A program made the translations under genes and the position numbers. The notes beneath the pieces were generated by a model. That model saw only the letters and a list, made by a program, of their open reading frames with translations. It was not told the DNA's origin and made no database searches. Positions 5,444 through 64,000 of a stretch of DNA of 64,000 nucleotides are shown here, piece after piece (within the stretch, counting starts at the first letter, position 1; the number at the start of each line of letters is the position of its first letter). The stretch comes from Psychrobacter alimentarius (GTDB lineage Bacteria > Pseudomonadota > Gammaproteobacteria > Pseudomonadales > Moraxellaceae). The stretch is from the NCBI RefSeq assembly GCF_001606025.1, contig NZ_CP014945.1, positions 1,612,001-1,676,000 on the forward strand. The letters run 5' to 3'.

Positions 5444-5477
5444 ATATTAGGTTTATAATTTTATTTTGAGTTTTTAT

Positions 5478-6242
5478 CTAGATTTCAGGATAATCGTCCA
5501 AAGGACTTTGGCAAAGACTTATAGTATTATCTTCAAACTGTATGGCAATTTTTCTTGCTATTAATCTTAAGCGATGAAAGCAAATAATTGCTTCAATTAA
5601 AGTTACATCATCTGGGTGAGCTTCATGAGTCAGTGTATTTCTTCTGTTTGAAATATCTTCATACGCTTTTACCCATTCCTCGGGTATAGGTTCTAAACCA
5701 AGTTTATTCCAGTGATTAACTCTGTTTCTTACACCCATTCTCTCATATTTATTTTGCTCACGTTCAAGAATTCCCGCCAGCATTTTGTCCGAACCCTTGT
5801 TAAGAATGTCTTTTAAAGAAACCTTCTCATCTAGAAAATTTTCTTTATTTTTATCTAATAATTTTTTGTACAAATCAAATTCATATGCTTCAAGAAGGCA
5901 GTAGTTATATAGAATTATTTGAGTGCCTATTATATGCTCAATAGGTATAAATTCTTTTTCATGACCAAATTCCATACCACCATGTTCAGAAATGTCAGAG
6001 AGTTCAGGTGTTCTAAAAATTAAAGAAATAGTTACACTTAACTCATTTGATAAACCATGTACTAACGGTAATAGGTTTTCATCTAAGTCTGGTCTATTAG
6101 CTGCAGTAGCCAAACAAGGAGAGGTAGACCATGCTTCTTGATCCCAGTTCATCATTTTCTTTGCTGAAATTGCCAAATCTGATGTTCTTACTGCCGACAG
6201 TGTAAATAAGTTCATCCGTTCAATGACTTCATTAAATAGCAT
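5478..6242 (-). CDS. HEPN-like domain protein of unknown function
   Basis: A 254-residue, mainly alpha-helical protein that I do not recognise as a whole. The C-terminal part carries the HEPN signature R-N-x3-H (R201, N202, H206, within SNRRNTLTHEA). In HEPN RNases of toxin-antitoxin, abortive infection and CRISPR systems this motif forms the active site; in other HEPN proteins it is only structural. The rest contains a helical region rich in Glu and Lys (120-175). The gene is clearly more AT-rich than its neighbours, suggesting transfer. No nucleotidyltransferase partner (MNT) is adjacent. The ATG at 6242 has an AAGG ribosome-binding site, and four TATG repeats lie directly upstream of it. 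A later in-frame ATG at 6215 is possible. Confidence 0.65.
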   Translation of the reverse strand: MLFNEVIERMNLFTLSAVRTSDLAISAKKMMNWDQEAWSTSPCLATAANRPDLDENLLPLVHGLSNELSVTISLIFRTPELSDISEHGGMEFGHEKEFIPIEHIIGTQIILYNYCLLEAYEFDLYKKLLDKNKENFLDEKVSLKDILNKGSDKMLAGILEREQNKYERMGVRNRVNHWNKLGLEPIPEEWVKAYEDISNRRNTLTHEAHPDDVTLIEAIICFHRLRLIARKIAIQFEDNTISLCQSPLDDYPEI

Positions 6243-48105: not shown

Positions 48106-50157
48106 TTAAAATTGATATTGTAAGCCTAACTGTACTGAGCTATCTTTATCGTCACGTGCAAAGGTGGTATCGCCATTCAGATAAGCATAGACATTGTTAT
48201 GCACCTTATTGCTAACACTCATCTCAAAACGTCCATAGTCATCATCTTTGTCTGCTTGGTTGATACTAATGTCTCTTTTTTGCCCGTCAGCGAAAGAGGT
48301 TGTCGATAAACGGTTCACCAAACCATCTTTGATAACATGCACGTAAACGAGTTTGCTTTGAAGTTTGGCAGGCGTGCCCATCAAATCAAAACCATACTGC
48401 AACTGGTAACCAAGCTCTGAGTCCCATGCTTCACTAGATGTGCTGTCAACTTTAAGGGCTGTGCGAGAGTTGGCATTGCCACTCGTGTAGCCGTCTATAT
48501 CAGCATCGCTATAATTTAAACCTAAAAAAGCACCATGCGCGATGTTTTCCTTAATAAGAAAATTGTAGCCAAGCTCATTGTAAGCACTAAACACGTCGGC
48601 ATCAGCATTACCGCGTTCGCTATTATTAATAATGTTGATACCATTATTGCCATCTAGTCTGACGGTTCTATTCACATCTAAATCATGTTTAGATAAGCTT
48701 ACAGAAGTCGTATTCCACCAAGCGGTGTCTTTTCCGCCCAGTAACAAGTATGCTTGAATACCATAGCTGGTATCTTTTTTAATACCGTTTTCTATGGTTT
48801 TATTATTCTGATTAGCCGCTTTGAGACCTGCACCAACACGCCAGCGAGGCTGCACAACGTATTCGCCATATACGCCAATATTGGCGCGAGTGCCTTCTTG
48901 TAGGTTATCAGTATTGACATAGCTTTGAGAACCGTCCACCCAAACCTGAGTACGTGAAGCGTCAAAGGTGTCATTGTTATCAGTGGCAGGTAAAGCCAAG
49001 GCATTGGCACGCTCAAGAACCGCTGAGTGTGAATCGGTGGCACTGTCCTTTAAAGCGGCGCCCATTTTATTTTGAAGATTCAGCGCGCTTTTGTTTGCGG
49101 CAATGATGTCAGCGTTGGTTTGCTCAACAATCAATCTACTAATGATACGCGAATAGTCACGCATTCTTTGTGCGATGCGTTCTTCACCGAATGCCGCCGT
49201 CAGCACGTCCTCATTATCTAATTCGGGATTGTGCCATGTATAGCCACCTGGGATATTTGGGTTTTCTGTTTGCGTGTAACCATCATAATCAGGTCCAAGG
49301 GCCCAGTTGGTTGCCTCAAATCCTACTACAGGCATCACGTTATCAAAAGATTCCTGATCGCTACAACAGCCAACGCCGTAGGGCTCGTAGGGTTCTGTCG
49401 CACCAGGTGCAATGATGGCCGGATTGACTTCAAGTGTGATACCAAGCTCTTTTGCAATACGAAGTGCGTTTTCACGCAACCCTACATTGGCAGCTACTTC
49501 GTTACCATTATTATCGTAAGCATTGCGACCTGCATTGGCATACATCTTATCGCCTGTAATCAGGCTGTCTAAGTTGATCATACCTAATGCTGTTGATTTT
49601 TCTGCGTCAGTGAGCTGATCAACAAACGCCTTTGAACCATTTAGGCCGCCCTCTTCTGCACCAAATGCGACAAACTGAATATCATGTTCTGTATCAATAC
49701 CAGTCAGGTTATTGGTCAACTCAGTCAGAACGCCAGACCCAGAGGCATTATCGTCCAATGCCTCTAGATTTTCATAGTTTGGATAGGCTACTGCAGAATC
49801 ATAATGTGCGCCGACAAATAGTGTTTTATTGGTATCAGCAATACCTTTTTGGGTCACGATAATGTTATTACTCGTTAGTGTTTGACCTCTAAATAAACCG
49901 CGAGGTGCGACAAAATCAAAAGTCTGACGATCGACTTTATTGTTACTACCATCGATGGTCATACGCTGCTGCATATAATTAGCAGCTTGAACTTCTTTAT
50001 CAGATCCTGTATAGCGACCAGCATAGTCGCGCGCAAGCGTTAACGCCGTTTCTTTACCATAATCACCGTATTGGGCTTCTGCAAATGTTTGTGAGCCTGT
50101 AAGTAGTGTCAGTGCAGCGACAACTGAAATCGTGAGCGGTGATAATTTATTATGCAA
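48106..50157 (-). CDS. Autotransporter aminopeptidase, M28 family (AaaA-like)
   Basis: A 683-residue type Va autotransporter. It starts with TTG at 50157, strongly supported by AAGGAG 7 nt upstream, and has a signal peptide (TISVVAALTLLTGSQTFA). The M28 peptidase domain spans about 35-345: zinc ligands H118 and D120 in GAHYDSA, D136 in ALDDNASGSG, catalytic E168/E169 in FGAEEGG, and D197 in MINLDSL. A linker of about 90 residues leads to a C-terminal beta-barrel (about 410-683) with the final aromatic residue Phe (LGLQYQF). The layout matches AaaA of Pseudomonas aeruginosa. Where many M28 enzymes have SDH for the last zinc ligand, this reads CCSDQESFDN, so the fifth ligand should be checked. 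It exposes the peptidase at the cell surface, probably to harvest amino acids. Confidence 0.9.
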   Translation of the reverse strand: MHNKLSPLTISVVAALTLLTGSQTFAEAQYGDYGKETALTLARDYAGRYTGSDKEVQAANYMQQRMTIDGSNNKVDRQTFDFVAPRGLFRGQTLTSNNIIVTQKGIADTNKTLFVGAHYDSAVAYPNYENLEALDDNASGSGVLTELTNNLTGIDTEHDIQFVAFGAEEGGLNGSKAFVDQLTDAEKSTALGMINLDSLITGDKMYANAGRNAYDNNGNEVAANVGLRENALRIAKELGITLEVNPAIIAPGATEPYEPYGVGCCSDQESFDNVMPVVGFEATNWALGPDYDGYTQTENPNIPGGYTWHNPELDNEDVLTAAFGEERIAQRMRDYSRIISRLIVEQTNADIIAANKSALNLQNKMGAALKDSATDSHSAVLERANALALPATDNNDTFDASRTQVWVDGSQSYVNTDNLQEGTRANIGVYGEYVVQPRWRVGAGLKAANQNNKTIENGIKKDTSYGIQAYLLLGGKDTAWWNTTSVSLSKHDLDVNRTVRLDGNNGINIINNSERGNADADVFSAYNELGYNFLIKENIAHGAFLGLNYSDADIDGYTSGNANSRTALKVDSTSSEAWDSELGYQLQYGFDLMGTPAKLQSKLVYVHVIKDGLVNRLSTTSFADGQKRDISINQADKDDDYGRFEMSVSNKVHNNVYAYLNGDTTFARDDKDSSVQLGLQYQF

Positions 50158-50252: not shown

Positions 50253-51245
50253 TCAAACCTCCAGCGACAACATATTCATAATCAACTTAATCAAGGTCTC
50301 TTTTTGATTCGGGTCAGACTCAGCGACCAATAAGGTCAAAGCAGCAAGACCTGTGTTATTGATCGCCATCTCACCCTGATCATTGAGTAGGCGTCCGTTA
50401 CGGTGTAAAAAATCTACAAACAAAAAAGCCCCACTGCGTTTATTGCCATCAGTAAAGGGATGGTTTTTCACCATAAAATACAATAAATGCGCCGCTTTAC
50501 TCTCAATAGTCGGATAAGCAGGTTCGCCAAACACAGTTTGCTCTAAATTACCAAGTACACTACTCAAACCATCACCACGAGGCTTAGCAAACAACTCCGT
50601 TGCCTCACCTCTATTAATTAGCTGTGATTTTAAGTTATTGAGCGCGTCCATTGCTTCAGTTGGACTGGGTAATACGCCACCTTCTTGCCCTGCTGGGTTA
50701 TCTAATAATCCTTCATCATAGCGTTGTAACCACAAAAAAGTCTGTGTATAGCGACTGATGATCTCAACCAATCCACGCCCTTCATCCGTTTTCAATTTAG
50801 GGCTCTGGGCAGTTTTCTTAATTAATCTTAACGCTTGCTGCAATTCGGCAGAGTTTTTGTCAAAGCGCTGTTGGTTAAGCGTATAACCTTGCACCAAGTA
50901 TTCACGTAGGCGCTGAGTTGCCCACCGTCTAAACTGCACACCTTGCGGTGATTTGATCCGATAACCTACTGAGATGACCACATCCAAGTCATAAAAAGTC
51001 ACGGGACGATCCGCATTTGCAATATGCATTTTTTGCATATTGCTTTTTTCGGAAACTTCTTCGTCACTTAACGCGTTGGCAATATGACGTGAAATCACGG
51101 ATTGATCGCGACCAAATAGCGCCGTCATTTGTGCCTGTGAGAGCCAAACCGTCTCTTGTTCAAAACGCACATTGACCTGTGCCTTTCCATCCGCACTCTC
51201 ATATATCTCAATGGTTGAGATATCATTATTTTCAATCGCTTTCAT
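50253..51245 (-). CDS. RhuM-Fic/DOC family protein
   Basis: A 330-residue two-domain protein. The N-terminal RhuM-type part (about 8-120) has VNVRFEQETVWLSQAQMTALFGRDQSVISRHIANAL, which looks like a helix-turn-helix, and YRIKSPQGVQFRRWATQRLREYLVQGY. The C-terminal Fic/DOC domain has the core HPFTDGNKRSG (H262 to R270). The Lys in GNKR, instead of the Gly in the canonical GNGR AMP-transferase motif, is like the Doc toxin, which phosphorylates EF-Tu. A toxin or regulatory kinase-like role is inferred. No separate antitoxin gene is adjacent; the N-terminal domain might supply that role. The ATG at 51245 follows GAGG. Confidence 0.88.
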   Translation of the reverse strand: MKAIENNDISTIEIYESADGKAQVNVRFEQETVWLSQAQMTALFGRDQSVISRHIANALSDEEVSEKSNMQKMHIANADRPVTFYDLDVVISVGYRIKSPQGVQFRRWATQRLREYLVQGYTLNQQRFDKNSAELQQALRLIKKTAQSPKLKTDEGRGLVEIISRYTQTFLWLQRYDEGLLDNPAGQEGGVLPSPTEAMDALNNLKSQLINRGEATELFAKPRGDGLSSVLGNLEQTVFGEPAYPTIESKAAHLLYFMVKNHPFTDGNKRSGAFLFVDFLHRNGRLLNDQGEMAINNTGLAALTLLVAESDPNQKETLIKLIMNMLSLEV

Positions 51246-51377
51246 TTGGGTGGCCTCTACGCATACATTAAATATATGAATCAGTGATTACTAATAACAT
51301 GAATTACTGAGCAATGGGTGCTCAATGAGATATCAATACTGCCTGTTTTTTAAGTGCGTTTGAAATAATGAAGGCAA

Positions 51378-51416
51378 TAAAAAACCCAAGTCAGTATATA
51401 TTACCAACTTGGGTTT
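51378..51416 (-). terminator. Rho-independent terminator of the candidate RNA
   Basis: A perfect 10-bp stem (AAACCCAAGT at 51382-51391, ACTTGGGTTT at 51407-51416) followed on the minus strand by TTTTTTATTG. No protein gene on the minus strand leads into it, so it must end a non-coding transcript, or be read weakly on the plus strand. Confidence 0.8.
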
Positions 51417-51486
51417 AATATTTTTGAATGGCATCAGAACAATGTTTCATTCAGTGTTGTGTAATCTACCTCATAACCTGGTACAT

Positions 51487-51617
51487 GGAAGACTCACTGG
51501 ACTGCACCTAGATAACACCTCTAGTGCATTAGCTCAACCACGATTGCGTGGTTGCGCCAGCGAGCTAATGACACTAGAGGTGTTATCTAGGTATTAGCAG
51601 GACTGAAACAGTCTTCC
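51487..51617. repeat. 131-nt near-perfect palindrome with nested central hairpin
   Basis: Outer arms GGAAGACT (51487-51494) and AGTCTTCC (51610-51617) match exactly. The main arms 51507-51535 and 51562-51591 (starting CCTAGATAACACCTCTAGTG) are complementary over about 29 bp with one extra base. A third stem (AACCACG 51536-51542, CGTGGTT 51547-51553) lies at the centre. On either strand it would form one long hairpin or a cruciform. Confidence 0.9.
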
Positions 51618-51705
51618 TTGGGTAAAATGTAATGGCTTGACTCGTGGACGACGCAGCATCGTCCTTCACCGAAAACGGCGAAACGCTAAATCTCACAACG
51701 TCCCT

Positions 51706-51735
51706 ATTCTGCCTTAACCTCAATCAAACTGTCAA
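51706..51735 (-). promoter_or_regulatory. Candidate sigma-70 promoter of the structured RNA
   Basis: On the minus strand TTGACA (51730-51735) is followed after 18 bp by CAGAAT (51706-51711). The -35 is perfect and the -10 matches 4 of 6. Predicted start near 51699. Confidence 0.45.
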
Positions 51736-51773
51736 TCAATTTTTGTTCATTAGCGACAGTCTTTTATACATAT

Positions 51774-51829
51774 GCGTCATCTAGTGTCGCATGATTCTAT
51801 CTAATCATCTGCGCGTCACCTAATGTCGT
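51774..51829. repeat. Two imperfect 17-bp direct repeats upstream of the HEAT-BRCT operon
   Basis: GCGTCATCTAGTGTCGC at 51774-51790 and GCGTCACCTAATGTCGT at 51813-51829 differ at three positions and are 39 bp apart. They lie in the promoter region of the large operon and upstream of the RNA promoter, so they may be an operator for either. Confidence 0.5.
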
Positions 51830-51937
51830 GTTTCCATTTTTTGATTAACAAAAGTTCTTGATATTTATTCTCAAATAGGCTTTTATATGCTTACAAAATA
51901 TCATTCGCTGGCCACATTATTATTAAGGCAAACCATC

Positions 51938-54900
51938 ATGAGTCTGTCGTTCGAACAAATTCAACACGCTTGGCAAGTACAAGATCCAAGCTTGGTCGAA
52001 AAGCTCTGTTTACTTGCTCAGCAACCTGATCCATTGCCTGAGTCACCGATACCAGATGACGAGCTAACATTTGAGCGATTTTTAAATAAGATATGGCGTT
52101 ACTCATTTCGCGAGCAGCCTCCTGAGGTACAGTTTGCAGAACGTGTGGCAATGATGGCAACGGTAGAGTCAGATGAAGGTACTTGCCCTCTTCCTGATCG
52201 CTATAAAATCTACTTAGTTTTAATTGCGCTTTGGGAAGATAAAAGCACTTATTCAAAAGCCATCTTAAAACAGGCTATCCATGAATTGCCTTTGAGTTAT
52301 GGCGTTTGGCGTGGTCTAAAGTATATTTACAAGGTGGCAGAATATGAGCAAGATTATGAGATTTTTGCGCCTATCACTGCCAAAATAGATTTACATCGTT
52401 TTGATCAAAGCATGAGAGATTCGGTCAGTCTTGCTACCAAAACCTATATGAGTCTCAGGGCATGGCGCTATCTTCGAAAACTTGGACAGCAGATGCCTGC
52501 CGGCTATGTTGAGGCGGCCGTCGCTGTGCTCGCCAGCTATAGTGAGACAATGACAATTGGTCAACTACCTCAAATCAACAGCTGGGTACTCAATCACATC
52601 TGTTTTCACAACTCAGCTGATTATGGCGTCAATCGCTTTCACAGTCACGCACCGCGCAAATTGTTTGATAATAAAGGTCGTGCTTTTAAAGCAGCTTGGC
52701 AGCGCGACTCTAAACCCCTTATTCGTTTGCTGGCCACGGCAAGAAATGAAGCCATACGGCAATTTGCAACGGATAGCTTAAAGCATGATTTTAAGATTCA
52801 GCTGCGTGATGTGAATGGTAAGACTATTCAATACTTATCGGCAGGCCAGCTACACAGTCAAGCACGCGATGAGATGATTGTATGGCTGATTGAGCAATCC
52901 CCGCATTTTGAGAAGTCAAAATTTGTAGCACTTGGGTTACATGAGGTGGTACTCAAGTTATTACATTCGAACTGTCCTGCTGCGTATCAATATGCCATCG
53001 GCTATGCTAAAAGCTATGCCCAAGCATTACCGCTATTAGAGCTGATGATGCTTGCGGTATCTGATCACGAGCCTGTTCGCAGCTTTGCCATCAGTATGAT
53101 TTTGAGCCGCAATCCTGTCGCTGACATTGGTGTATCAGGTTGGGGACAATTATTAGATACGTCTTATCATCATAACATTGCCGCTGAACAACTCAGTAAG
53201 CACTTCACGCGCCGCGATCTGACTGCTGAATGGTTTTTTGAGCGCCTGATCAGCAACCAGCGTTACAGCATGCGCTTTGCAATACGTAGACTGCCTGAGC
53301 TATACAGCGCCCAAGAACTTGGCAGTGACTATTTTATCCGTTTGGCAGTACAACTGGATACTTCTACAAATAGTGACAGCAGCGATCTATGCATGAATTT
53401 TGCATTACAAGAGCTCAAGCGTCTCGATCTGAGCCTAGTAGATGTCAACGTTTGGCAGTACCTATTGCTGCATCCTCTAGCGCAGCAGACCATCATTGAT
53501 TGGCTTGATGAAGATATTTTGTCAGCAAACAAGATTCCGATGTCCTACTGGCACGCCCTTGCCTATGAGCCTGATTGGCATAGTAGTAATGAAATCGTGC
53601 AGATAAAAACCTCTCCTTATCTCACGTGCTATAGCCGTGCTCATACTGGCACAAACACTCATTTCGATCATGCAGATCTGATCAAACAATGGCAAAAAGA
53701 TCTAAGTTTTGATGAATATTTGGCAGACACCGTACGCGATTGGTTGGCTGATGTGCGTCGGTTTGCACCAATTGAGTTGGGATTTGATTGGCTCATGATA
53801 CTTGCTCGCAGCGAGCATTCAGAATACCGCGAATTTGCCATTGAGCGCATTAATAAAGGTTTTCTGCCAGCAGATTTTGCGACCAATCAAAACATGTCTT
53901 CAGAAGAAAATTCGCCTGAAGACACAAACGCTGCTCATACTACTCACACGACAGAAGTCACTGTTGATTTGGACAATCAGCGTTATCTATTCACTGGCAA
54001 AATGCAAAGCATGAGTCGAGGCGATGCCGAAAAACTGGTCAAATCAGCCAATGGTGCGATCAGCAGTGCCGTGAATGCCAAGCTGGACTATTTGGTCATC
54101 GGTGATGACGGCTCACCTCTATACGGCGCTGGTCGCAAAGGCAGTAAGCAGCTGAAAGCAGAAGCATTGATTGCTGAAGGCGCTCCGCTCAAAATTATAT
54201 CAGAAACCGCATTTTTGCAGAGATTAATTGGACAAGCACGCGCCGCATCCGAAGACGATACGATGGCAGGTGCTGAGGTCTTATGGTCAATGGCAGTTGA
54301 TGATCCTACCGCGCCTATCAGTGAGCTTGCGATTAGCTATTTGAGTCATCATCACGAGCAAATATGCATGGCATTAACAGACCGACCTGTCGATCCTGAT
54401 GCCATCATTCCTGCTTTATTTTTCAGTGCCGAGCGTGTCATACCTTTATTGAAAAGCAGTCAGCAAGCGCTCCGCAACTTTGGGCTACTGCTTACAAAAT
54501 ACGAGCTGGCCAAGTGGTCGCCAACACCTGCACTGTGGCTGATAATGGCAGAATCGCCTTATTTTGAGGTCACGCAATTATTGCAGCAGGCATTGCTGGC
54601 AGCACCTTCTGTAAGCAATCGTGCCTACCATGTGCCTGTAGAGCAGTTTAATGAATCCATGCTCAATGCATTTATTGGCAGTAAAAAACGACTGGCGCGA
54701 CAACTTGGCATGGCACTATTACAGCGCCATCGCCAATTTCAAAACCCGCAGTCTCTTTATGTATTGAGTCAAAGTGCTGACCGCGAAGTACGCTATGCCG
54801 CTGTGACCATGCTTTGGCAGCAGTACAAAGCGCGCCATGTCTCACCGCAATGGCAGCCAGCAAGCCAGTATGATAAAACCAATAGCACCTCAGGAAACAC

Positions 54901-55417
54901 CCTAAATAACAGCGTAGTAAATACCGAGCCAAATGACTGGTCAACCAATCCCCCTGCCGATTTGAATCAGTTATTGATGCTTTTAAGGCGCGGGCTGTTT
55001 GAGTTGCCACCAGGACGATTAAGTCCTTCTAAAAGCGCTGAGCGATCAAATCCACAAAAAAACGAACAGCGATCAAATCCACAAAAAAACGAACAAGGTC
55101 GTCATTCAAAGCACGCGCAGCGCATGGATAAAACACAAGCAGCAACAGACCAAGAGCAAATCCTCTCACCCAAACCCATACCTGCCAGCCAAGCAAAGCT
55201 AGCCTTGATTGAGACGTTCCGTGATGTGGGATTGGCAGACGAGGATTTTGCCAAGCTGATCATGCCTTTTTTATACACCTTTACCCATTCTGCAGGCAAG
55301 ATGGAGCGTCATGCGTGTTTGGTCGCAGTCACACGCTTATTACATCGTTACCCCAAGTTGTCCGAGCATTTACAGCCCAGTGCTGTCAGCTCAAATGAGT
55401 CAACAGCAAGCAAATAA
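51938..55417 (+). CDS. Very large HEAT-like solenoid protein with a BRCT domain
   Basis: The start is placed at the ATG at 51938 (MSLSFEQIQHAWQ), with AAGG 9 nt upstream; the frame opens at 51887. The 1159-residue protein is mostly amphipathic helices, many in HEAT-like pairs (for example SREHSEYREFAIERI and SQQALRNFGLLLTKYEL). A BRCT domain of the NAD-dependent DNA ligase type lies at about 684-761: YLFTGKMQSMSRGDAEKLV, then DYLVIGDDGSP and ISETAFLQRL. In DNA ligase this domain binds DNA or phosphopeptides. A Gln/Asn-rich low-complexity linker holds an exact 27-bp tandem duplication. No catalytic site is visible, so it is probably a scaffold. It is the first gene of an operon with two more large genes downstream (46-bp gap). 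Confidence 0.85.
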   Translation: MSLSFEQIQHAWQVQDPSLVEKLCLLAQQPDPLPESPIPDDELTFERFLNKIWRYSFREQPPEVQFAERVAMMATVESDEGTCPLPDRYKIYLVLIALWEDKSTYSKAILKQAIHELPLSYGVWRGLKYIYKVAEYEQDYEIFAPITAKIDLHRFDQSMRDSVSLATKTYMSLRAWRYLRKLGQQMPAGYVEAAVAVLASYSETMTIGQLPQINSWVLNHICFHNSADYGVNRFHSHAPRKLFDNKGRAFKAAWQRDSKPLIRLLATARNEAIRQFATDSLKHDFKIQLRDVNGKTIQYLSAGQLHSQARDEMIVWLIEQSPHFEKSKFVALGLHEVVLKLLHSNCPAAYQYAIGYAKSYAQALPLLELMMLAVSDHEPVRSFAISMILSRNPVADIGVSGWGQLLDTSYHHNIAAEQLSKHFTRRDLTAEWFFERLISNQRYSMRFAIRRLPELYSAQELGSDYFIRLAVQLDTSTNSDSSDLCMNFALQELKRLDLSLVDVNVWQYLLLHPLAQQTIIDWLDEDILSANKIPMSYWHALAYEPDWHSSNEIVQIKTSPYLTCYSRAHTGTNTHFDHADLIKQWQKDLSFDEYLADTVRDWLADVRRFAPIELGFDWLMILARSEHSEYREFAIERINKGFLPADFATNQNMSSEENSPEDTNAAHTTHTTEVTVDLDNQRYLFTGKMQSMSRGDAEKLVKSANGAISSAVNAKLDYLVIGDDGSPLYGAGRKGSKQLKAEALIAEGAPLKIISETAFLQRLIGQARAASEDDTMAGAEVLWSMAVDDPTAPISELAISYLSHHHEQICMALTDRPVDPDAIIPALFFSAERVIPLLKSSQQALRNFGLLLTKYELAKWSPTPALWLIMAESPYFEVTQLLQQALLAAPSVSNRAYHVPVEQFNESMLNAFIGSKKRLARQLGMALLQRHRQFQNPQSLYVLSQSADREVRYAAVTMLWQQYKARHVSPQWQPASQYDKTNSTSGNTLNNSVVNTEPNDWSTNPPADLNQLLMLLRRGLFELPPGRLSPSKSAERSNPQKNEQRSNPQKNEQGRHSKHAQRMDKTQAATDQEQILSPKPIPASQAKLALIETFRDVGLADEDFAKLIMPFLYTFTHSAGKMERHACLVAVTRLLHRYPKLSEHLQPSAVSSNESTASK
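55042..55095 (+). repeat. Perfect 27-bp tandem duplication inside the HEAT-BRCT gene
   Basis: Two identical 27-bp units, 55042-55068 and 55069-55095, encode RSNPQKNEQ twice in the linker near the C-terminus. The unit is divisible by three, so gain or loss keeps the frame. Confidence 0.9.
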
Positions 55418-55463
55418 TAAAGATGATCACACCATACGCCGCCATTTCAACTGAGATTAGATC

Positions 55464-58400
55464 ATGAAAACAACCACATTGCCCTACTGGGGTCAAATTA
55501 TAGGCTTGGTTAGCAGACAGCCTGATACTGACAATACGATAAAAAAAACCACAAAGTCAGTTGCGCAGGGTCGCAGTTTGTTTATCACTCGAAAGCCGAT
55601 AGGCGCGTATGAAAGCACTGCAACCTTGTATCGACTTGATAATACGGGTGAGCAAGTAAGCTTAGCAGCCGCTCCATTACCCTGTGCAATGGAGGCCATT
55701 GCCACGGTAACTGATGACGTTATTATGCTGCTTGGCTGTGATGGCCACTTGTATCAGACCGACTGGCAGGGAGAGACAATCCATAAAATCAGTGGCATGT
55801 CGTTATTCACAAGTATTATTGAATTTCACAATAGCACTGAAACTGAAACCGCGGACACAGATATAAACAACATTGAGGGTTTTGCTAAATCCTTATCGAC
55901 GAATAGCAACCCACAAGCGATTGCTATGACCACGCTGCATCAAGCAATCGTCGTGTTGTATCCCCATCACATCGTCATCTGTCCGCTTACTAGTAGTGCT
56001 GCTGGCGATGTTGCTGTTGCTAATGTCAAGGTTATCGTGCAGCCATGTACTGATAGCCAGACTCAAAAATCCACCGCCCTTGCCGCCTCAGGTGACGGTA
56101 AATGGCTGGTGATCGGCGATGAGCTGGGTAACGTTAGTAGTTATCAATGGCTAAGTGATGATGACGATAGTAGTGGTCAGCTGATACAAAGCAGCCGTAA
56201 ACTGCTGCATCAAGGCCGTGTGAGCGCTTTATGCTTTGAGCCTATTGGTCATTACTTTTTTTCAGCAGGCGCAGACAAGCACCTTTATCGCACCCATGTA
56301 CAAGGCGAGCTACAGGCGATAGATAGAGCCAAATCAAGCCAGCATGATCAAATGATTACTGCGCTTTGTGTCTCAGACACGCGCCTATTTAGTAGCGCCG
56401 ATGACAGCAGTGTGAAGTCCTGGGCATTTGATAAAGGTCAGCCAAATACCTGCAAAGACGACCTTAGCAAAACACGGCAACTGGTGTACACAAATTATGC
56501 AGAAAAACCTGCGCTGCTGGCTATTGGGTCAGATCAGAGTCTTCGTTTTTTGCCCATCGATGAGGCGCAGAACAGTAAGTTGCTTGCGGTTGCTATGGTC
56601 ATAGAAGACGGCTACCATCAGCTTCAGCATCGATTGACCGACAGTAGTAATCAGAGTGAAGCAGCATTTTTAGAGGGAATGGCGCTGCTTGAATCACAAG
56701 TGAGTAATCAAACGATAAAGCTGGTTGGCCGTCTCTTGGCAGATCGTAGCAACAGCTTAAGCATCAACCGCGCTCTGCAGTTGGTACAGTGGCTAGCTGG
56801 TATAACGCTTGATGCGCGTTTACCCATACTTGAAGAGCAGCTTCACTCAAATCGTGGCAGCCGTGTGCGTCTTGCCGCATCTGATGGTTTAACGACGGCT
56901 GCTACAACAAACCTCAATGCATTACCCTCATACTTAGAGGATGCGCTTGCACGTTCCACGAATGAGGACGTTATTAGTGCCACGCTACAACGCTATCTAA
57001 CAATCGCCACTCAGGATACAGACAAACAGTCTCGCGTTGTATCCATTTTGCAGGCGGCACTGTCGCACTCCATGTTACCCATTCGCCGGCAAGCATTAGC
57101 ATCGCTTGAGCACTTGCTGCCAGACGCCAGCCCAAAAGCAGATATTATGGCGTTGGATAGCCGCTACTCTGACACCATTCAGGCAGGACTGATTCGACTG
57201 TATCAGCGCGGTTTATTGGATAATCCAGAAGTGTCCCGCCAGCTTATGTTGCTGCAAAGCCACCATCAAGCTGACGTCAGACAAACCGCTTTTTATGCGG
57301 CTTTATTGGCGCAGCCTGAGCTCATTAAGGTCTTAAAGCAGCAAGCCCATGCAAAAGAAGACGCCCAGCTACTACGTACACTGACTGATTTTGATGACTT
57401 TCGCTTACTGCGCGGTACGGTCTTTGACAATATAAAAGTAGATAAGCATACGTCCAATTACGATGAGCTATTAAATGTCATGATAGGATCGCGCTTTGAA
57501 CACCAAACCAAAAATGCGACCGAGCGTACCGTTCAAGAAGATGATACTACTGTCAGTCTTACATTAGATACACAAGATTTTGCCACCCAAGCCGAGCAAA
57601 AACCAGGTAAAAACACTGCCGAAACGGCGACTACGGCAACGATAGTATCACGTCCTATAATTAGCAACGCCTGTCTTGAGCCTCTATTACAAAATCTGAG
57701 CAACCGCTACGAAGATATCAGTTTTCGCGCCGCCTACGCTCTTGCCTGCTTAGAGGATGCGCGCGCATTTGGCACCCTAATACGGTTTATGCATCATGAT
57801 AACGATGCCTCTATTCGTGCAGGGGTTGCGGCTGCCCTAGGTCATCTACAGCTAGCCGATGGGAAAAGCATTTTACCCACCTTGCTTGATGATAGAGATG
57901 CTGGTGTGCGCCAAGTCGCTATGAGCGCCCTAGGAAAACTGGTAGATGATGACTTATCTTGGGTGGCGTTTGGGTTTTCCGCAAAGCATCAAGACATTCA
58001 TGAGCGTGCGCTTGCAATATTGTTGACACAAGTGCTAAACAATAAAAAAGCGATTTCTAACCCATCAGATATGAGCACGGTACTGGATCAAGCACTCAAT
58101 AACCCCTTTACCAGCATTCGCTTGGAAGTGGTAAAAGTGTTACTCAATAAAACGCTTGAACGTGCTACCAAAACCACTATCATTAATATGATTGAACAGC
58201 TACAACACAGCCTGTTTGAAGATGTGCATCAAGTGGCAGTAGAAGAATGGCAGCGACTCTTATTACAGAGCACATCAAAAATAAGTACGGCACCGGACGG
58301 TATAGACACGTACCAGGCGGTGCTGACTTTGCTGCTTGCTGATAACTTTGCCAATATTCGTAAACAAGCTTTTGATACGGCGCTTAAAAATAGCAAGCGC

Positions 58401-61400
58401 TTCGGATTTACCGATCTAATGTTGGACGCACTTGCCAGCCCTCATCTCGATATCAAACGTTTGGTGCTGAGCCAATTACAAACCAAAGCCAGCACTCAGC
58501 AGCTGCGCGTGTTAATGCCCGCCTTGATAGATTTGTTGGCAAATGACAGTCTAGACTTGCGCCAGCAGGCATTAGCAGTCGCGCTAAATTTGACTGATAT
58601 TGGAGTTTCGCTCAACTCGACCACCAACCATGAAGCATTATTTACTGCCGGACTAAGCAGTCCTTACCCTGATATCCAACTGACCGTCGCCAAACTGCTG
58701 GCAAGTCAGTCCATCAATTATCCTGAGCCACTAAAGACGCAGTACGAAGCAAACGCTTATGCCGTGTTTGCACAGTATCTGAATAAAGAGATGCCTATAT
58801 CTGCCAGCCATAAAAAAGACAATGAAGATTACAAACAGTGGCATCAGCAGATCACCGATGCCCTAATAGGGTTGGCAACGCTCTCAGAGCCTAATCAATA
58901 TCACGCTTTAGACTGGTATGCGCGCTACTTACACCATCCTGATGCCGATTTTAGCTCACTTGCGCCCAAGCTTATGTACATTGTCACGCCTCAAGATACC
59001 GAGATACTGGCGACATGGCAACAAGACGAGCGCCCAATCATCCGTCAATCTGCCAGCTTGGCTTTGGCAGTCTGGGGCGACAGCCGCGGGCAGCAGTTTT
59101 TTGGCAACGCATCTACTCATGCCTCTAGCAAAAGCCATAACGACAGCCTGCGCCATCTTGTTGATCCTATTGGGCCTATTCAATGGCTACAAGCGCGCTC
59201 AGGCTTGGGTATTACTCAAGCACAGCAGCTACGGCTGTTATTTGATAATCAAACATATGCGCCAGCCGCCAGATTATTGCTCATATTCAATGCTTTGGTA
59301 TCACCACTCACTCGACCCGAGCGCCTCATTGAGGCATTGAGCTTTGCCGACAATGAGACTGCGGTTGTTTATGCACATGTATTGGCACGCTTTCACCTAC
59401 CTTCGATCTCCAATTGGCAGTATCTCAGTGACTACTTGTCGCAGAAGATTGATACCATTTTGGTAGCTCATCCAAAGATGCTGACGATGTCGTCAGAGAC
59501 AAGCGGTGCCAACACGCGTAGCACGACTGACGCACGCGCCCACATACTCAGTATGGTCAATGTTGCAGGCTTACAGCAATTTGCATATTTAACTCAGCAC
59601 AAGGCACCTTTGATACGTGCTCAAGCGGTGGCAGTTTTGGGTAAGTTATCTCGTCTGCTCTCGCAGCAATCTTATGAGGATGATGCCAAGGTATTTGCCG
59701 CTCTACAAGAATGGCAGCATAGCATTGCAAATATCGAAAATATCGAAAGTATCGATACTTTACTTCAACGTCATCACTCCCCAGCTGATACCGATGAGCT
59801 TAGTCAGCAAGGTATGAGCAATGCTGACATTGATGATACGTATCAAACCCTTGCATTTGGCGCATGGCTTGGCGTCATTCGTGAAAACGATCATAGTAAC
59901 AGCAGCACCGAGCAAGCGATTCGCGGGCTAATGTGGCTGACCAAATCGGCTCTAGCACCAAGTACAGATACGGTATCAACCAAAGCATCAGCCGCCAGCA
60001 ATCAAGGCGAGGCTATCGACTGGTCGGACAGTGTCAGCCGTGCGTTATTGCCTCTGCTTTATCGCCCTCACATTGAAACGCGTGAGCTGGTGTGGGACTG
60101 CTTATCCACGCTGCCTATTTCTGCATTAAAGTTGGCTGAATATGCCATGAATACGCCGTATCGCGATATGGTCAAATGTGGTTTGCACTGCTTGATAAAC
60201 AGCCTTGAAACTGTATCTGTATCGAGCGATAGCAAAGTGGACATAAATGCCGCTGGCAATCAACCACTAACAGACTTACTGTTCACCAATCATGATCTGT
60301 TGGCAGAAGAGACCTATCAACTATTAAAGGAACGTATGGGTCATTTACCAGCCAGCCTCATGGCGCTGAATACAGAGAGCCTACCACTGTTACGGCAAGT
60401 GGTGAGCGAATGGCGTCACATCACAACGCGCACTTCTCAGACAGCAGGCGGGTCTGACCAAGCGCAAGCCTTACGCCAAGACAAATTGACCTTTTTATTA
60501 CAAGCACGTCACTGTCACGACTGGCAGGCACGCTATCAAACCTTTATGCAACTTATCGAGTTTGATGACGTATTGTTTACGGATACAGAATTTGCCGATA
60601 CAGGGTTTAATCATACTAAGCTGATGGATGAGTTGTTTGTCTTTTTAATGGACAGTACAAGCAAATACGAGCAAGAGCAGGTTTTATCCCTCATTACTCA
60701 AGTATTGCAATCTTGCCAGCGTATTCAAACGACAGCGTATCTTGATAATATTGATAAAGCGGTGGACACAAAGATGGTTGAAACAGCGGCGCAAAAAAGC
60801 CGCGAGCAGCTATTATCCTTGCTAGACAACGCCACACTCAAGCTGTCAAACGCGGACTTATACAAATCTATTGCCGCACTGCGCGATACGCACATGGCTA
60901 CTCCCTTACGCGACCGCCTGCAAAAAATGTTCGAACATCCAGCAGCTCATTCATCTCAGGAGCGGCAGCAGCTGTTTGATACACTCGTCATAATCAGTGG
61001 TTACGACCAGCCTATTCATGACTATTTGGGAGAGGATAAAGACGTGCGCTGGCTACAACAACAGTATCCCAGAGATCCTGAGGCGCTATTGTCTTTATTT
61101 ATCTTGCTCCTACGCCATGCCGACTATGGGCATGCCGCTCAGCTACTCAGATCATTGGCTTGGGTCCCTTTAGTATGGACGTCAGATACGGTTATTGGTG
61201 CAGACCAGAGTAAAGAGGAGGATATTGCCACGCGTATTGATAAAACCTTGGCTCTGTCTTATGAGCAGCTACCTGCTAAGTATATGCAAAACCTGATCAA
61301 GGCCGTCTCTTACCGTGCCAAGAAACGTAAAAACCATGCAGACGTCCTAAAAAACACACTCAAAAAAGCCTTATCATACAAAGAGGCGTCAGTGCCGTTT

Positions 61401-63143
61401 TTGGCAGCAGAAGGGTTGGCGCTCTGCGGCAATAGTGAGGGTTTGAGCACGTTAATGGCCAGTATTGACTACCATACTGATGGTGATATGCGTCGCCGTA
61501 GTGTGCTGGCTATTGGTGAGATGATGCAGGTTCATTCTCAACCTACAGACACGCATGCCCTCTATAAGGCGTATGATAAGTTAATCAAACTGGCAGAAGA
61601 TGATGAGCACTACTTACAAGACGTGGCCTCTGAAGCGTTGGGACATATCGCGCAGGGCGGCGCATTTGAATACAGCGCGCAGATTTTTGCTTTATTGACA
61701 GCGCAGTTGTCAGACCCTGAATTACAACCCTATAACCCGGCTATTGCTCATTGGTTAAATGGGCTACGCTGGTTGAACACCAGCAATGCTTGGGCGCAAA
61801 TCCGCAAACACATACAGCGCCAGTTACATGAGCAATTCCTATTTGCACCGCAGCAGCATGCCATCTCCTTATTATCGCATTATGATAGCGATGCGAACAA
61901 AGAGATGCTGTTAGATACTCTCAGACAAGATACCAATCAAGAAGCGATACTAGAAACCGCTTATACGGCTGCGCAAAACCTATGGGGCAACCGTACTGAT
62001 CATATCTATCCGTATGACTGGGCGGCAATACAAAACCCAAATGAAGATTTTACATTGCTAGCAGCGCTTAGCCTAAAACGCATCGTGACGCACAGCACTA
62101 TTGATATGCTGGCACCCTTTATCACTCAGCATATCCATGAACTGCCCGCGCAGATATTTGCCATATTACAAAATGCGCTATTGGCAAAACCTAACATGAG
62201 CCAGCGGCAGCTTCGCAGCTTGATCGACAGCCCGGATGCGCAGATACAGCATATAGGTTTGCGCTATATAACGCAGTACCCTAGTCAGTATCTTGATACG
62301 CAAATGCAGATAGACTGCAAGCAGTACTTGATCACCGCGCAGCATCGATGGCAAACGCTACTGGATATCGTCACAGCGCAGCCTGTCATGAGACACCATG
62401 ATACATGGTTGACTCAAATGCAGCATACAGCCACCACGATTACTCACTTATTGTGGATCACATGCCGCTATGGCGTCCCTGATAATGCTTTATTTGACTG
62501 GTTAAGCGCTCAGCTGACCTTACCTGCCATCAGCAGCGTAGCCGCACTGGCGACGGCGGTCAGCGCGTACTGGCAACAGGCCTTGTTAGGGCTGCTGGCA
62601 CGGCAGGCAAGCGACGATCATCTGCTTGCTGACCTAATACCAACCCTTATCAATATAGCCAACAATCCAATAGCGCCACTGGCAGCAGAAAACAACGCCT
62701 TATTGTCTACCCTGCTTAAGCGATTGACTGTGCAAGAGGCGCAAACAGCTAACGCAAAACTGACATCTACCACTACGCCTCAGCCAGATTCAAGCCAGCC
62801 GTTACTAGCAGCGATTAAGGCCAAAGACGCCGCCGCGCTATATGACTATGCAAAAGACAGCCATGTTGAGACGTCAATACGAATACGCGCCATCGAAGCG
62901 CTTGGGCAGCTGCACGATCCTAATATTGGCACGTGGCTGGATGCTTTAAGCAAAACACCTGCTGATGATGACATGGATATTCAAAAACTGGCTTACAAAG
63001 TTTTGCGCCGCTGGCAACGCGCTATGACGCGCGCTCAGCAAAAACGCCCGCAACTGCCTACTGTAGTAGCGATGAGAAGCATTCATACAAAGACGACAGA
63101 CAAGCTACAGAATCAGGGCGAAGGACATTATCATGACCAATAA
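55464..63143 (+). CDS. Giant WD40 plus HEAT-repeat protein (2559 residues)
   Basis: The longest gene in the window. Residues about 20-385 contain degenerate WD40-type repeats (GKWLVIGDELGNVSSYQW; GRVSALCFEPIGHYFFSAGADKHLYR; MITALCVSDTRLFSSADDSSVKSW). From about 390 to the C-terminus there are many HEAT/armadillo-like helical pairs, such as DDRDAGVRQVAMSALGKL near 815 and a terminal block TSIRIRAIEALGQLHDPNIG. The domain pair fits a large assembly platform; no enzyme motif was found. There is no signal peptide or membrane segment. The ATG at 55464 comes 46 bp after the BRCT-HEAT stop, and its stop overlaps the start of the next gene by 11 bp, so all three are one transcription and translation unit. 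Function is unknown. Confidence 0.85.
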   Translation: MKTTTLPYWGQIIGLVSRQPDTDNTIKKTTKSVAQGRSLFITRKPIGAYESTATLYRLDNTGEQVSLAAAPLPCAMEAIATVTDDVIMLLGCDGHLYQTDWQGETIHKISGMSLFTSIIEFHNSTETETADTDINNIEGFAKSLSTNSNPQAIAMTTLHQAIVVLYPHHIVICPLTSSAAGDVAVANVKVIVQPCTDSQTQKSTALAASGDGKWLVIGDELGNVSSYQWLSDDDDSSGQLIQSSRKLLHQGRVSALCFEPIGHYFFSAGADKHLYRTHVQGELQAIDRAKSSQHDQMITALCVSDTRLFSSADDSSVKSWAFDKGQPNTCKDDLSKTRQLVYTNYAEKPALLAIGSDQSLRFLPIDEAQNSKLLAVAMVIEDGYHQLQHRLTDSSNQSEAAFLEGMALLESQVSNQTIKLVGRLLADRSNSLSINRALQLVQWLAGITLDARLPILEEQLHSNRGSRVRLAASDGLTTAATTNLNALPSYLEDALARSTNEDVISATLQRYLTIATQDTDKQSRVVSILQAALSHSMLPIRRQALASLEHLLPDASPKADIMALDSRYSDTIQAGLIRLYQRGLLDNPEVSRQLMLLQSHHQADVRQTAFYAALLAQPELIKVLKQQAHAKEDAQLLRTLTDFDDFRLLRGTVFDNIKVDKHTSNYDELLNVMIGSRFEHQTKNATERTVQEDDTTVSLTLDTQDFATQAEQKPGKNTAETATTATIVSRPIISNACLEPLLQNLSNRYEDISFRAAYALACLEDARAFGTLIRFMHHDNDASIRAGVAAALGHLQLADGKSILPTLLDDRDAGVRQVAMSALGKLVDDDLSWVAFGFSAKHQDIHERALAILLTQVLNNKKAISNPSDMSTVLDQALNNPFTSIRLEVVKVLLNKTLERATKTTIINMIEQLQHSLFEDVHQVAVEEWQRLLLQSTSKISTAPDGIDTYQAVLTLLLADNFANIRKQAFDTALKNSKRFGFTDLMLDALASPHLDIKRLVLSQLQTKASTQQLRVLMPALIDLLANDSLDLRQQALAVALNLTDIGVSLNSTTNHEALFTAGLSSPYPDIQLTVAKLLASQSINYPEPLKTQYEANAYAVFAQYLNKEMPISASHKKDNEDYKQWHQQITDALIGLATLSEPNQYHALDWYARYLHHPDADFSSLAPKLMYIVTPQDTEILATWQQDERPIIRQSASLALAVWGDSRGQQFFGNASTHASSKSHNDSLRHLVDPIGPIQWLQARSGLGITQAQQLRLLFDNQTYAPAARLLLIFNALVSPLTRPERLIEALSFADNETAVVYAHVLARFHLPSISNWQYLSDYLSQKIDTILVAHPKMLTMSSETSGANTRSTTDARAHILSMVNVAGLQQFAYLTQHKAPLIRAQAVAVLGKLSRLLSQQSYEDDAKVFAALQEWQHSIANIENIESIDTLLQRHHSPADTDELSQQGMSNADIDDTYQTLAFGAWLGVIRENDHSNSSTEQAIRGLMWLTKSALAPSTDTVSTKASAASNQGEAIDWSDSVSRALLPLLYRPHIETRELVWDCLSTLPISALKLAEYAMNTPYRDMVKCGLHCLINSLETVSVSSDSKVDINAAGNQPLTDLLFTNHDLLAEETYQLLKERMGHLPASLMALNTESLPLLRQVVSEWRHITTRTSQTAGGSDQAQALRQDKLTFLLQARHCHDWQARYQTFMQLIEFDDVLFTDTEFADTGFNHTKLMDELFVFLMDSTSKYEQEQVLSLITQVLQSCQRIQTTAYLDNIDKAVDTKMVETAAQKSREQLLSLLDNATLKLSNADLYKSIAALRDTHMATPLRDRLQKMFEHPAAHSSQERQQLFDTLVIISGYDQPIHDYLGEDKDVRWLQQQYPRDPEALLSLFILLLRHADYGHAAQLLRSLAWVPLVWTSDTVIGADQSKEEDIATRIDKTLALSYEQLPAKYMQNLIKAVSYRAKKRKNHADVLKNTLKKALSYKEASVPFLAAEGLALCGNSEGLSTLMASIDYHTDGDMRRRSVLAIGEMMQVHSQPTDTHALYKAYDKLIKLAEDDEHYLQDVASEALGHIAQGGAFEYSAQIFALLTAQLSDPELQPYNPAIAHWLNGLRWLNTSNAWAQIRKHIQRQLHEQFLFAPQQHAISLLSHYDSDANKEMLLDTLRQDTNQEAILETAYTAAQNLWGNRTDHIYPYDWAAIQNPNEDFTLLAALSLKRIVTHSTIDMLAPFITQHIHELPAQIFAILQNALLAKPNMSQRQLRSLIDSPDAQIQHIGLRYITQYPSQYLDTQMQIDCKQYLITAQHRWQTLLDIVTAQPVMRHHDTWLTQMQHTATTITHLLWITCRYGVPDNALFDWLSAQLTLPAISSVAALATAVSAYWQQALLGLLARQASDDHLLADLIPTLINIANNPIAPLAAENNALLSTLLKRLTVQEAQTANAKLTSTTTPQPDSSQPLLAAIKAKDAAALYDYAKDSHVETSIRIRAIEALGQLHDPNIGTWLDALSKTPADDDMDIQKLAYKVLRRWQRAMTRAQQKRPQLPTVVAMRSIHTKTTDKLQNQGEGHYHDQ

Positions 63144-64000
63144 ACAAATAGACAACTTAATTGACCAAACCGCCATCAGTCAAGAGGCGACACCAGCAGA
63201 CAAGGGTGAGACTCACGCTAATGGCGTGATGATGGAGCTCAATTATGCCGCGCCAAGCCATGTGAGCTTATCCTCAGATCAGCAATCTGACCACACCCAG
63301 CATGTGGCATTGTTCACACAGCTAGAGCGTGATGCGGTCAGCTTTCATGGCAAGCTCAAAGATCCACTGATTTTTCGGGACAGCTTACTGGCGTTATTTG
63401 ACGTGGTCAGTAGCGATTACCGCTATGTACCAAAAGACCGTGCCGCCTATACGGTGTTTATGCAAATGCGCCGCGCCAGTCGTCATAAGAACCTATTTTC
63501 TGCGCAGCGTGATTATTTTACATGGCTGTTTGACAATGACCCTTTGGCCTTTTGTCTGCTCGACCCTATCATTCAAGTCCATCAAGCAGGCGTCAGTTTT
63601 GAGGTGTTCAGCCGTGATGAAGGCTGCTATGCGCAACTGACTTTGCAGCACGATTTGTTTGAAACAGTATCTACTCCCGTGCTTGGTACTACCAGCATTG
63701 ACTACAGTAGCGCCTTATTTGATGGTATTGAGCAAATCCGTGATCATCAAATAACCACGTTAGATATTGGTCAAGAAGCGATACGTCTAGAGCGCTCAAA
63801 CGTATCAGAGCCAAAAGATAATTCTGAGACCGAAATGGATAGCGCGGTCAATGAGGATAGTAAACAGGAAGTCATCGAAAAACGCATCAATGTACCCAAA
63901 AGTTGGATACGCGCATTATTGCAAGTACAGTCAGCAGGTCAACTGGCACAAGAACGGATTGACCTTGATCCTATTGCATTATACAACGTGTTGTTTGAGC
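63133..64000 (+). CDS. Third gene of the HEAT operon, partial, unknown function
   Basis: A reading frame opens at the ATG at 63133, inside the last 11 bp of the WD40-HEAT gene, behind AAGGA. It stays open for 289 codons to the window end, so the gene is incomplete and not seen by tools that require a stop. The N-terminal 60 residues are polar. A more conserved-looking block follows (FRDSLLALFDVVSSDYRYVPKDRAAYTVFMQMRR), then YFTWLFDNDPLAFCLLDPIIQVHQAGVSFEVFSRDEGCYAQLTLQ, an acidic linker, and WIRALLQVQSAGQLAQERIDLDPIALYNVLF. I recall similar blocks in SWIM zinc-finger proteins of MoxR-ATPase/VWA operons, but the zinc ligands would lie beyond the window. The translational overlap implies tight coupling with the scaffold protein. 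Confidence 0.85.
   Translation, partial: MTNKQIDNLIDQTAISQEATPADKGETHANGVMMELNYAAPSHVSLSSDQQSDHTQHVALFTQLERDAVSFHGKLKDPLIFRDSLLALFDVVSSDYRYVPKDRAAYTVFMQMRRASRHKNLFSAQRDYFTWLFDNDPLAFCLLDPIIQVHQAGVSFEVFSRDEGCYAQLTLQHDLFETVSTPVLGTTSIDYSSALFDGIEQIRDHQITTLDIGQEAIRLERSNVSEPKDNSETEMDSAVNEDSKQEVIEKRINVPKSWIRALLQVQSAGQLAQERIDLDPIALYNVLFE

Follow-up and report, generated by a model that had tools for sequence, protein, structure and literature searches.

The right end of the window (the whole stretch of DNA analysed, 64,000 nucleotides of the 3.35-Mb genome of Psychrobacter alimentarius) holds three co-directional ORFs, A, B and C, and the question they raise is which system such large proteins belong to. 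A preliminary description of this DNA gave the first two proteins as 1159 and 2559 residues and joined the third ORF to them by an 11-bp overlap, all of which the ORF listing confirms. It placed the three in one transcription unit, read as a multi-protein machine with its catalytic part beyond position 64000 and a SWIM protein next in line. The three ORFs stand, the third ORF is itself a SWIM-finger protein, and the catalytic part does lie beyond 64000, where a reverse transcriptase (RT) gene, D, completes the operon. The unit as described was incomplete, however: the operon ends at the window equivalent of 66717, and an RNA gene, missed in that account, precedes it. The protein-coding features are as follows.

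51938..55417, + strand: gene A, HEAT/BRCT scaffold of 1159 aa (ORF opens at 51887, 1176 aa; HEAT-ARM_XIII, 1021.5 bits)
53894..54226, + strand: BRCT region of A, residues about 653-763 (domain scan, relatives, family profile)
55464..63143, + strand: gene B, WD40/HEAT giant of 2559 aa (HEAT-ARM_XIII, 1348.8 bits)
63133..64000, + strand, continuing to the equivalent of 65286 (L002:634-2787): gene C, SWIM protein of 717 aa (SWIM_XIII, 505.6 bits)
65290-66717 equivalent, outside the window (L002:2791-4218): gene D, retron reverse transcriptase of 475 aa (RT_XIII, 523.9 bits)
51858..51887, + strand: promoter-like TTGATA-18-TTTATA of the operon (found by eye; the mechanical scan did not call the site)

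A and B are separated by 46 bp, B and C overlap by 11 bp, and C and D lie 3 bp apart. Since, for most relatives, the alignment of the A protein begins at codon 10-18 of the longer (51887) reading, and the operon promoter-like sequence touches the earlier ATG, 51938 is the likelier start of A. Gene D is followed by a minus-strand GDSL lipase gene and then by ATP-grasp, transglutaminase, proteasome-like and UvrA-like genes. A RhuM/Fic gene of PADLOC candidate class PDC-S23 also adjoins the operon.

The PADLOC-DB 2.0.0 models HEAT-ARM_XIII, SWIM_XIII and RT_XIII match all four proteins at 506-1349 bits, and all three models are represented in the one operon. Retron RTs are marked by NAxxH, QGAPTSP, YADD and VTG motifs. 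Across 16 relatives, YADD is invariant, as are N, A and H in NAxxH, T and G in VTG, and almost the whole of QGAPTSP, and D carries these retron motifs with an intact active site. Among solved structures, the best match of the RT profile is to the Ec86 RT chains (E 1.8e-67). The closest database relatives of D are from Psychrobacter (91% to P. alimentarius).

Retron type XIII is already known, in that PADLOC-DB has models for it, and it is said to be included in the retron classification of Mestre et al. 2020. Our locus agrees with the published type in four protein matches, all by large margins; it differs from what the models cover in that the RNA is identified, at the operon head, about 14 kb from the RT and divergent in one clade. 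A literature search on the type returned PMC11953036, which lists retron type XIII in Variovorax, and beyond it nothing on the type and, among the papers listed, nothing on a type XIII RNA. A search on WHSWIM returned nothing, and one on a retron msd with the opposite strand returned other RT systems alone. In PMC9252829, PADLOC is described as finding retron ncRNAs with covariance models kept in its repository. We report the type XIII RNA and its divergent placement as found here, with no claim of first in print. Judged from the sequence, the locus is very probably a retron of type XIII together with its RNA gene, identity and RNA gene being taken jointly.

A retron requires an msr-msd RNA, as a rule encoded near the gene of the RT or of the effector. 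The candidate and its neighbours lie upstream of A.

51456..51699, - strand: 244-nt ncRNA gene, oriented divergently to the operon and proposed as its msr-msd (motifs, covariation, covariance model, G-U strand bias)
51687-51699, - strand: a1 (role by analogy with known retrons)
51686, - strand: predicted branching G (role by the same analogy)
51456-51468, - strand: a2 (role by the same analogy)
51646..51682, - strand: two short msr-type stem-loops, 51665-51682 and 51646-51664 (helices 2 and 3; 96-97% of cells paired, 9/13 pairs with double changes)
51502..51600, - strand: long msd-type hairpin (helices 5-7; arm-swap test, below)
51706..51735, - strand: promoter-like site of the RNA gene, TTGACA-18-CAGAAT, lying 6 bases 5' of a1 (scan, 10 of 12)
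51382..51416, - strand: stem plus T run resembling an intrinsic terminator, at the RNA gene's 3' end (scan)
51774..51829, no strand: two operator-like imperfect palindromes, 51774-51790 and 51813-51829, between the divergent promoters (loose pattern)

Known retron RNAs share an anatomy of a1/a2, a branching G, msr and msd, and the candidate has the a1/a2 pairing, branch-G context, msr stem-loops and msd hairpin. The roles of a1, a2 and the branching G are those we presume from this anatomy. In Ec86 (Eco1), a1 is followed by a UUAGC context; the same context follows a1 here, a likeness that accompanies the closeness of the RT profile to the Ec86 RT. The two systems differ in layout: Ec86 has one small effector and its RNA just beside the RT, whereas here three large proteins stand between RNA and RT.

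Region 51440-51700 (261 nt) gives folding z-scores of -8.8 on the plus strand and -10.8 on the minus strand, and Rfam has no match in the window or in L002. A mechanical promoter scan of 51200-52000 called one site, that of the RNA gene; as shuffled sequences average 3.1, this site alone proves nothing, and similar hexamers occur at the same place in relatives. Two terminator-like sites were found in 801 bp, against a shuffle mean of 0.5, and relatives have hairpins with T runs of differing sequence 3' of a2. A site of the operator-like kind was seen upstream of A in 21 of the 26 loci of the family. Genome-wide, the palindrome pattern has 16 matches compared to 13 for a backward control; the motif is thus repeated and conserved here without being enriched across the genome.

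Covariation was measured on several sets of copies. Across 22 sequences of the family, double compensatory changes were seen at 21 of the 79 pairs predicted; in 19 copies picked for diversity (alignment A6, on which covariance model R1 was built) the figure is 49 of 69, and pair cells are paired in 96.3% of cases compared to 71.4% when shuffled and 36-39% with slid partners. A further alignment, A2, left out L048 (flipped hairpin top), L044 (Ns), L054, and L056 and L058 (contig ends). A tally of hairpins came to 61 entries and 25 distinct hairpins, several entries being one locus under two ids. For the long hairpin, the arms of 16 copies were placed by flanking motifs alone, with no structure-fitted alignment, and scored as the best of a few registers, real and control alike. 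Each arm paired 98.6% with its own partner and 58% with a swapped one, while the 5' arms have a mean identity of 32%. Four of 240 swaps reached the lowest own value, 0.82, which is that of L054. With a single fixed register, own-arm pairing had a mean of 84% and a minimum of 27%, compared to 45% for swapped arms. The msd arms could, however, stay perfect by template-switch mutation instead of selection, and the flipped top in L048 shows that such events occur. Since palindromes can be kept in this way, the msr helices speak more strongly for selection than the msd arms do.

The kinds of mismatch point to the strand. In the a1/a2 and msr helices, 361 cells include 50 G-U and 1 A-C; these 50 G-U cells would be mismatches on the other strand, which argues that the minus strand is the RNA. 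The plus strand was also considered as the RNA strand and was dropped on the promoter, the terminator, the G-U evidence and the other orientation in distant relatives. The remaining helices, those of the msd part, include 4 G-U and 11 A-C among 950 cells. Thus the putative msd scarcely uses wobble, as would be expected if it works as DNA. Such a contrast in wobble use, rich in the msr and poor in the msd, may allow the DNA-acting part of a retron RNA to be recognised from sequence alone.

We then asked how faithfully RNA and operon occur together. The RT_XIII model matched 37 of 348 genomes of the family at E up to 1e-60. Twenty-seven scored above 420 bits (25 of the same genus, our own included, plus G195 and G199); the other ten, all below 250 bits, are probably other retrons. 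The preliminary description had proposed surveying homologues for a fixed set of partners, and such a set exists: the order A-B-C-D is kept in 25 of 26 loci of the family, the 26th (L058) being cut by its contig and without A, and nine further operons from other groups, L072 and L073 included, are complete from the RNA through A, B and C to D. Separately, the draft locus L060 has A, B and C split or short, and L059 has a short RT ORF. The start motif of the RNA lies upstream of A in the window and in 24 of the 26 loci; that search did not place it in L054 or L058. On the minus strand after the start motif, intact copies carry two small hairpins, the long hairpin and a2, with a promoter-like site before. 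The hairpin of L044 contains Ns, and L056 is truncated by a contig end.

A DNA pattern made of the conserved motifs flanking the hairpin was searched in contigs of 84,980 species' genomes, with fewer than 0.1 chance matches by rough estimate. It found 34 stretches, 21 in Psychrobacter and 13 elsewhere, the latter including Zooshikella, Thiothrix, Thiofilum, Thiolinea, two Planctomycetes MAGs and one Verrucomicrobia MAG. Gene A adjoins the RNA in 31 of the 34, the stretches L098, L103 and L113 being too short for this to be judged. Of 11 named genomes with the RNA that were searched, nine hold RT_XIII above 530 bits; no RT_XIII match was found in G722 and G725, both of them MAGs with the RNA.

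The covariance model found the RNA in 31 of the 348 family genomes, including all 27 that have the type XIII RT; of these 27, 7 had served to train the model and the remaining 20 are closely related to its training genomes. In G329 the RNA match is partial and on a different contig from the RT, and in G301, which has an RNA match and is not among the 27, the contig stops 274 bases beyond the RNA. In G241, G254 and G294 the RNA ends are retained together with codons 1-95 of A in its longer reading, but their RNA measures 176 nt instead of 244, with the hairpin collapsed, and the rest of A and genes B, C and D were not found in the 18 kb fetched. These are genomes that lost the operon and keep the RNA ends but not the full hairpin. 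Among 369 genomes of the class, the model matched three, all training members; in a draw of the same size, five other genomes with SWIM_XIII matches gave no RNA match. Because many records are the same assemblies, the counts of 26 loci, 34 stretches and 31 covariance-model genomes overlap.

Orientation follows the phylogeny. All 19 assessable Psychrobacter loci are divergent, as is L037 from another genus of the family, and all 12 assessable others are co-directional. In L072 and L073 (another family, found via the SWIM model) and in L054 of the same family, the RNA lies on the operon strand with its hairpin rewritten. In an RT tree of 23 sequences, a branch supported at 100/100 has all nine divergent RTs on the same side, a grouping that suits a single inversion of the RNA gene.

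The domains named in the preliminary description were HEAT and BRCT in A and WD40 and HEAT in B. HEAT in B is clear (HEAT_2, 57.2 bits against a cut-off of 27.7); WD40-type propeller models match B (best E 2.8e-7), yet stay under curated cut-offs. BRCT in this copy of A is also below the Pfam cut-off (13.7 compared to 21.3 bits), but it is secured by relatives that score above it (L129, 31.3 bits; L073, 24.0 bits) and by a profile of 25 A proteins, which matches BRCT domains in the PDB, that of RFC1 at E 1.5e-6 and that of DNA ligase A at E 3.8e-6; the entries matched are 2k6g, 2ebu, 9vse and 2owo. Eight A-like proteins were scanned, and BRCT showed at E up to 0.1 in five of them, L129 and L073 included. 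Where A matches ligase or polymerase families, the match is confined to the BRCT region and was rejected as a sign of an enzyme part: A resembles RFC1 and the NAD-dependent ligase by profile, but its BRCT sits within a HEAT-type protein that has neither ligase nor clamp-loader parts. For A, B and C alike, domain and profile scans recognised neither an enzyme nor a toxin domain. In C, the SWIM ligands C559, C561 and C574 are invariant in 29 sequences and H576 nearly so. Against solved structures, the SWIM profile gives weak winged-helix hints alone (E 0.3-0.4).

The three A-like proteins without BRCT (L071, L076 and L135) belong to a group in which WGR replaces it. WGR scores above the cut-off in L071 (40.1 bits) and just below in L135 (21.0 compared to 22), and was not seen in L076 by domain scan. 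The WGR-type loci L075, L076 and L135 share with ours a HEAT protein, a SWIM protein and a related RT, and gene B was not found in them. Their SWIM-RT gap spans 309-440 nt and folds strongly (z -4.0, -5.9 and -8.4). Model R1 does not recognise this gap; going by these folds, it may be where the RNA of the WGR group sits.

Taken as a whole, the locus is best explained, and in our judgement likely explained, as a type XIII retron with a divergent msr-msd RNA gene followed by A-B-C-D. For its function we lean towards an anti-phage role, inferred from the class to which it belongs; the phage defence that the preliminary description named among its guesses agrees with that PADLOC class. That the locus is a retron whose RT-DNA and scaffold instead serve DNA repair or another housekeeping role is unlikely, though not fanciful: BRCT and WGR domains are common among DNA-repair proteins, the BRCT of A matched those of RFC1 and LigA, and no toxin domain was recognised. 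Such a role fits poorly with a patchy presence (27 of 348 family genomes), with losses by deletion, with a class catalogued for defence and with the neighbouring RhuM/Fic gene of PDC-S23.

It is much less probable that the hairpin element is not an msr-msd at all, but either a mobile palindromic element or a structured sequence that regulates the operon, with the true template elsewhere. Long perfect palindromes are typical of such elements, and this one adjoins the operon's own promoter, far from the RT gene. However, region 51440-51700 is present at a single place in the genome, which rules out a repeat element, and in all 31 matches that could be assessed, which span three phyla, the RNA neighbours gene A. 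Its a1/a2 and msr helices covary and are rich in G-U, no operon gap after gene A exceeds 46 bp, and its occurrence in either orientation relative to A would not be tolerable for a cis leader. Finally, the MoxR/VWA/SWIM scaffold operon of the preliminary description, which likewise has SWIM and helical-repeat proteins, can be set aside with hardly a reservation: HEAT, WD40 and SWIM parts are present, but annotation past 64000 gave a retron RT as fourth gene, in a fixed A-B-C-D order, followed by the lipase and unrelated genes in place of the predicted MoxR AAA+ and VWA genes.

For the type XIII retron, known retron biology suggests how the parts would work. The RT would bind the RNA, prime from the branching G and copy the msd hairpin into single-stranded DNA joined to the RNA; by analogy with Ec86, this RT-DNA is predicted to start near + strand position 51470. 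A, B and C might hold the RT-RNA-DNA complex as a scaffold, although we put little confidence in this step. BRCT domains such as those of RFC1 and DNA ligase A bind DNA ends, and the BRCT of A could conceivably read a DNA end, either of the RT-DNA or of phage DNA. Equally speculatively, phage tampering with the RT-DNA would free or rearrange the scaffold and stop the cell. The general logic given in PMC12548924 is that RT and RT-DNA together neutralise the toxicity of the effector for as long as no phage perturbs the RT-DNA. We tentatively offer a different arrangement for type XIII, doubtful as it is: the template RNA would be an autonomous divergent gene acting in trans on a very large scaffold, and the RT-DNA hairpin, of near-fixed length, nearly free sequence and perfect pairing, would be a DNA-end mimic or tether read by BRCT (WGR in the cousins), not the antitoxin of a small enzyme.

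Type XIII retrons combine giant proteins with no recognised toxin, and with the RNA and its position in hand the system can be reconstituted. A clone starting at gene A or at the RT would miss the template RNA, and an RNA search beside the RT would overlook it. Viral contigs gave no match to the DNA pattern. Among plasmids there was one RT match, in Methylobacterium, with 44% identity over 70% of the query.

At L048 (15757-16003), a locus from a relative, the top of the msd hairpin of the proposed msr-msd RNA gene is inverted compared to all other aligned copies of the family, while the arms and flanks are unaltered. This inverted top is a flip within the palindrome. The RNA gene occurs twice in tandem ahead of a single operon in Thiolinea disciformis (L097, 5480-5965), and the hairpins of the two copies differ from one another.

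In three other genomes (loci L184, L185 and L186), we found an RNA with a collapsed hairpin together with the first 95 codons of gene A, and no B, C or D was found in the 18 kb fetched at each locus. These loci are remnants left by deletion.

In the relatives of the WGR group, a strongly folding gap separates the SWIM and reverse transcriptase (RT) genes (L075, L076 and L135). Our covariance model of the RNA gene, R1, did not recognize this gap, which probably represents another type XIII RNA, a second one that looks unrelated to the first. Proteins resembling the PADLOC model SWIM_XIII were also detected in L071, L077, L078 and L079, where a match to the gene D RT is absent from the fetched stretches, some of which are short contigs. 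Because these stretches show no gene D match, the SWIM family may also act independently of an RT.

Other features in the neighborhood of the RNA gene and operon:

Window 51774-51829: a pair of palindromes 39 bp apart in the interval that separates the divergent promoters, each reading GCG(A/T)C-N6-(T)GTCGC/T
Window 50253-51245, minus strand: RhuM/Fic fusion (Pfam RhuM and Fic), adjoining the RNA gene and operon
Window 48106-50157, minus strand: 683-aa ORF, read by eye as a putative peptidase fused to an outer-membrane barrel
L002 (continuation of the window past 64000), 4292-5700: lipase/ATP-grasp block, directly downstream of the operon

Genome-wide, the palindrome motif is not commoner than a backward control of the same pattern. 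Using a loose pattern, a similar site was found 5' of gene A in 21 of 26 loci, and the pair is possibly an operator common to the RNA gene and the operon.

The RhuM/Fic fusion matches PADLOC candidate class PDC-S23 (448.8 bits). By eye, an ORF start resembling that of the fusion adjoins the remnant at L184-L186. As judged from coordinates, the lipase/ATP-grasp block also lies directly 3' of the operon in genomes G236 and G338, and upstream of it, on the RNA side, in G248, G281, G290, G303 and G327. These genomes share the neighborhood, and the side of the operon on which the block lies differs.
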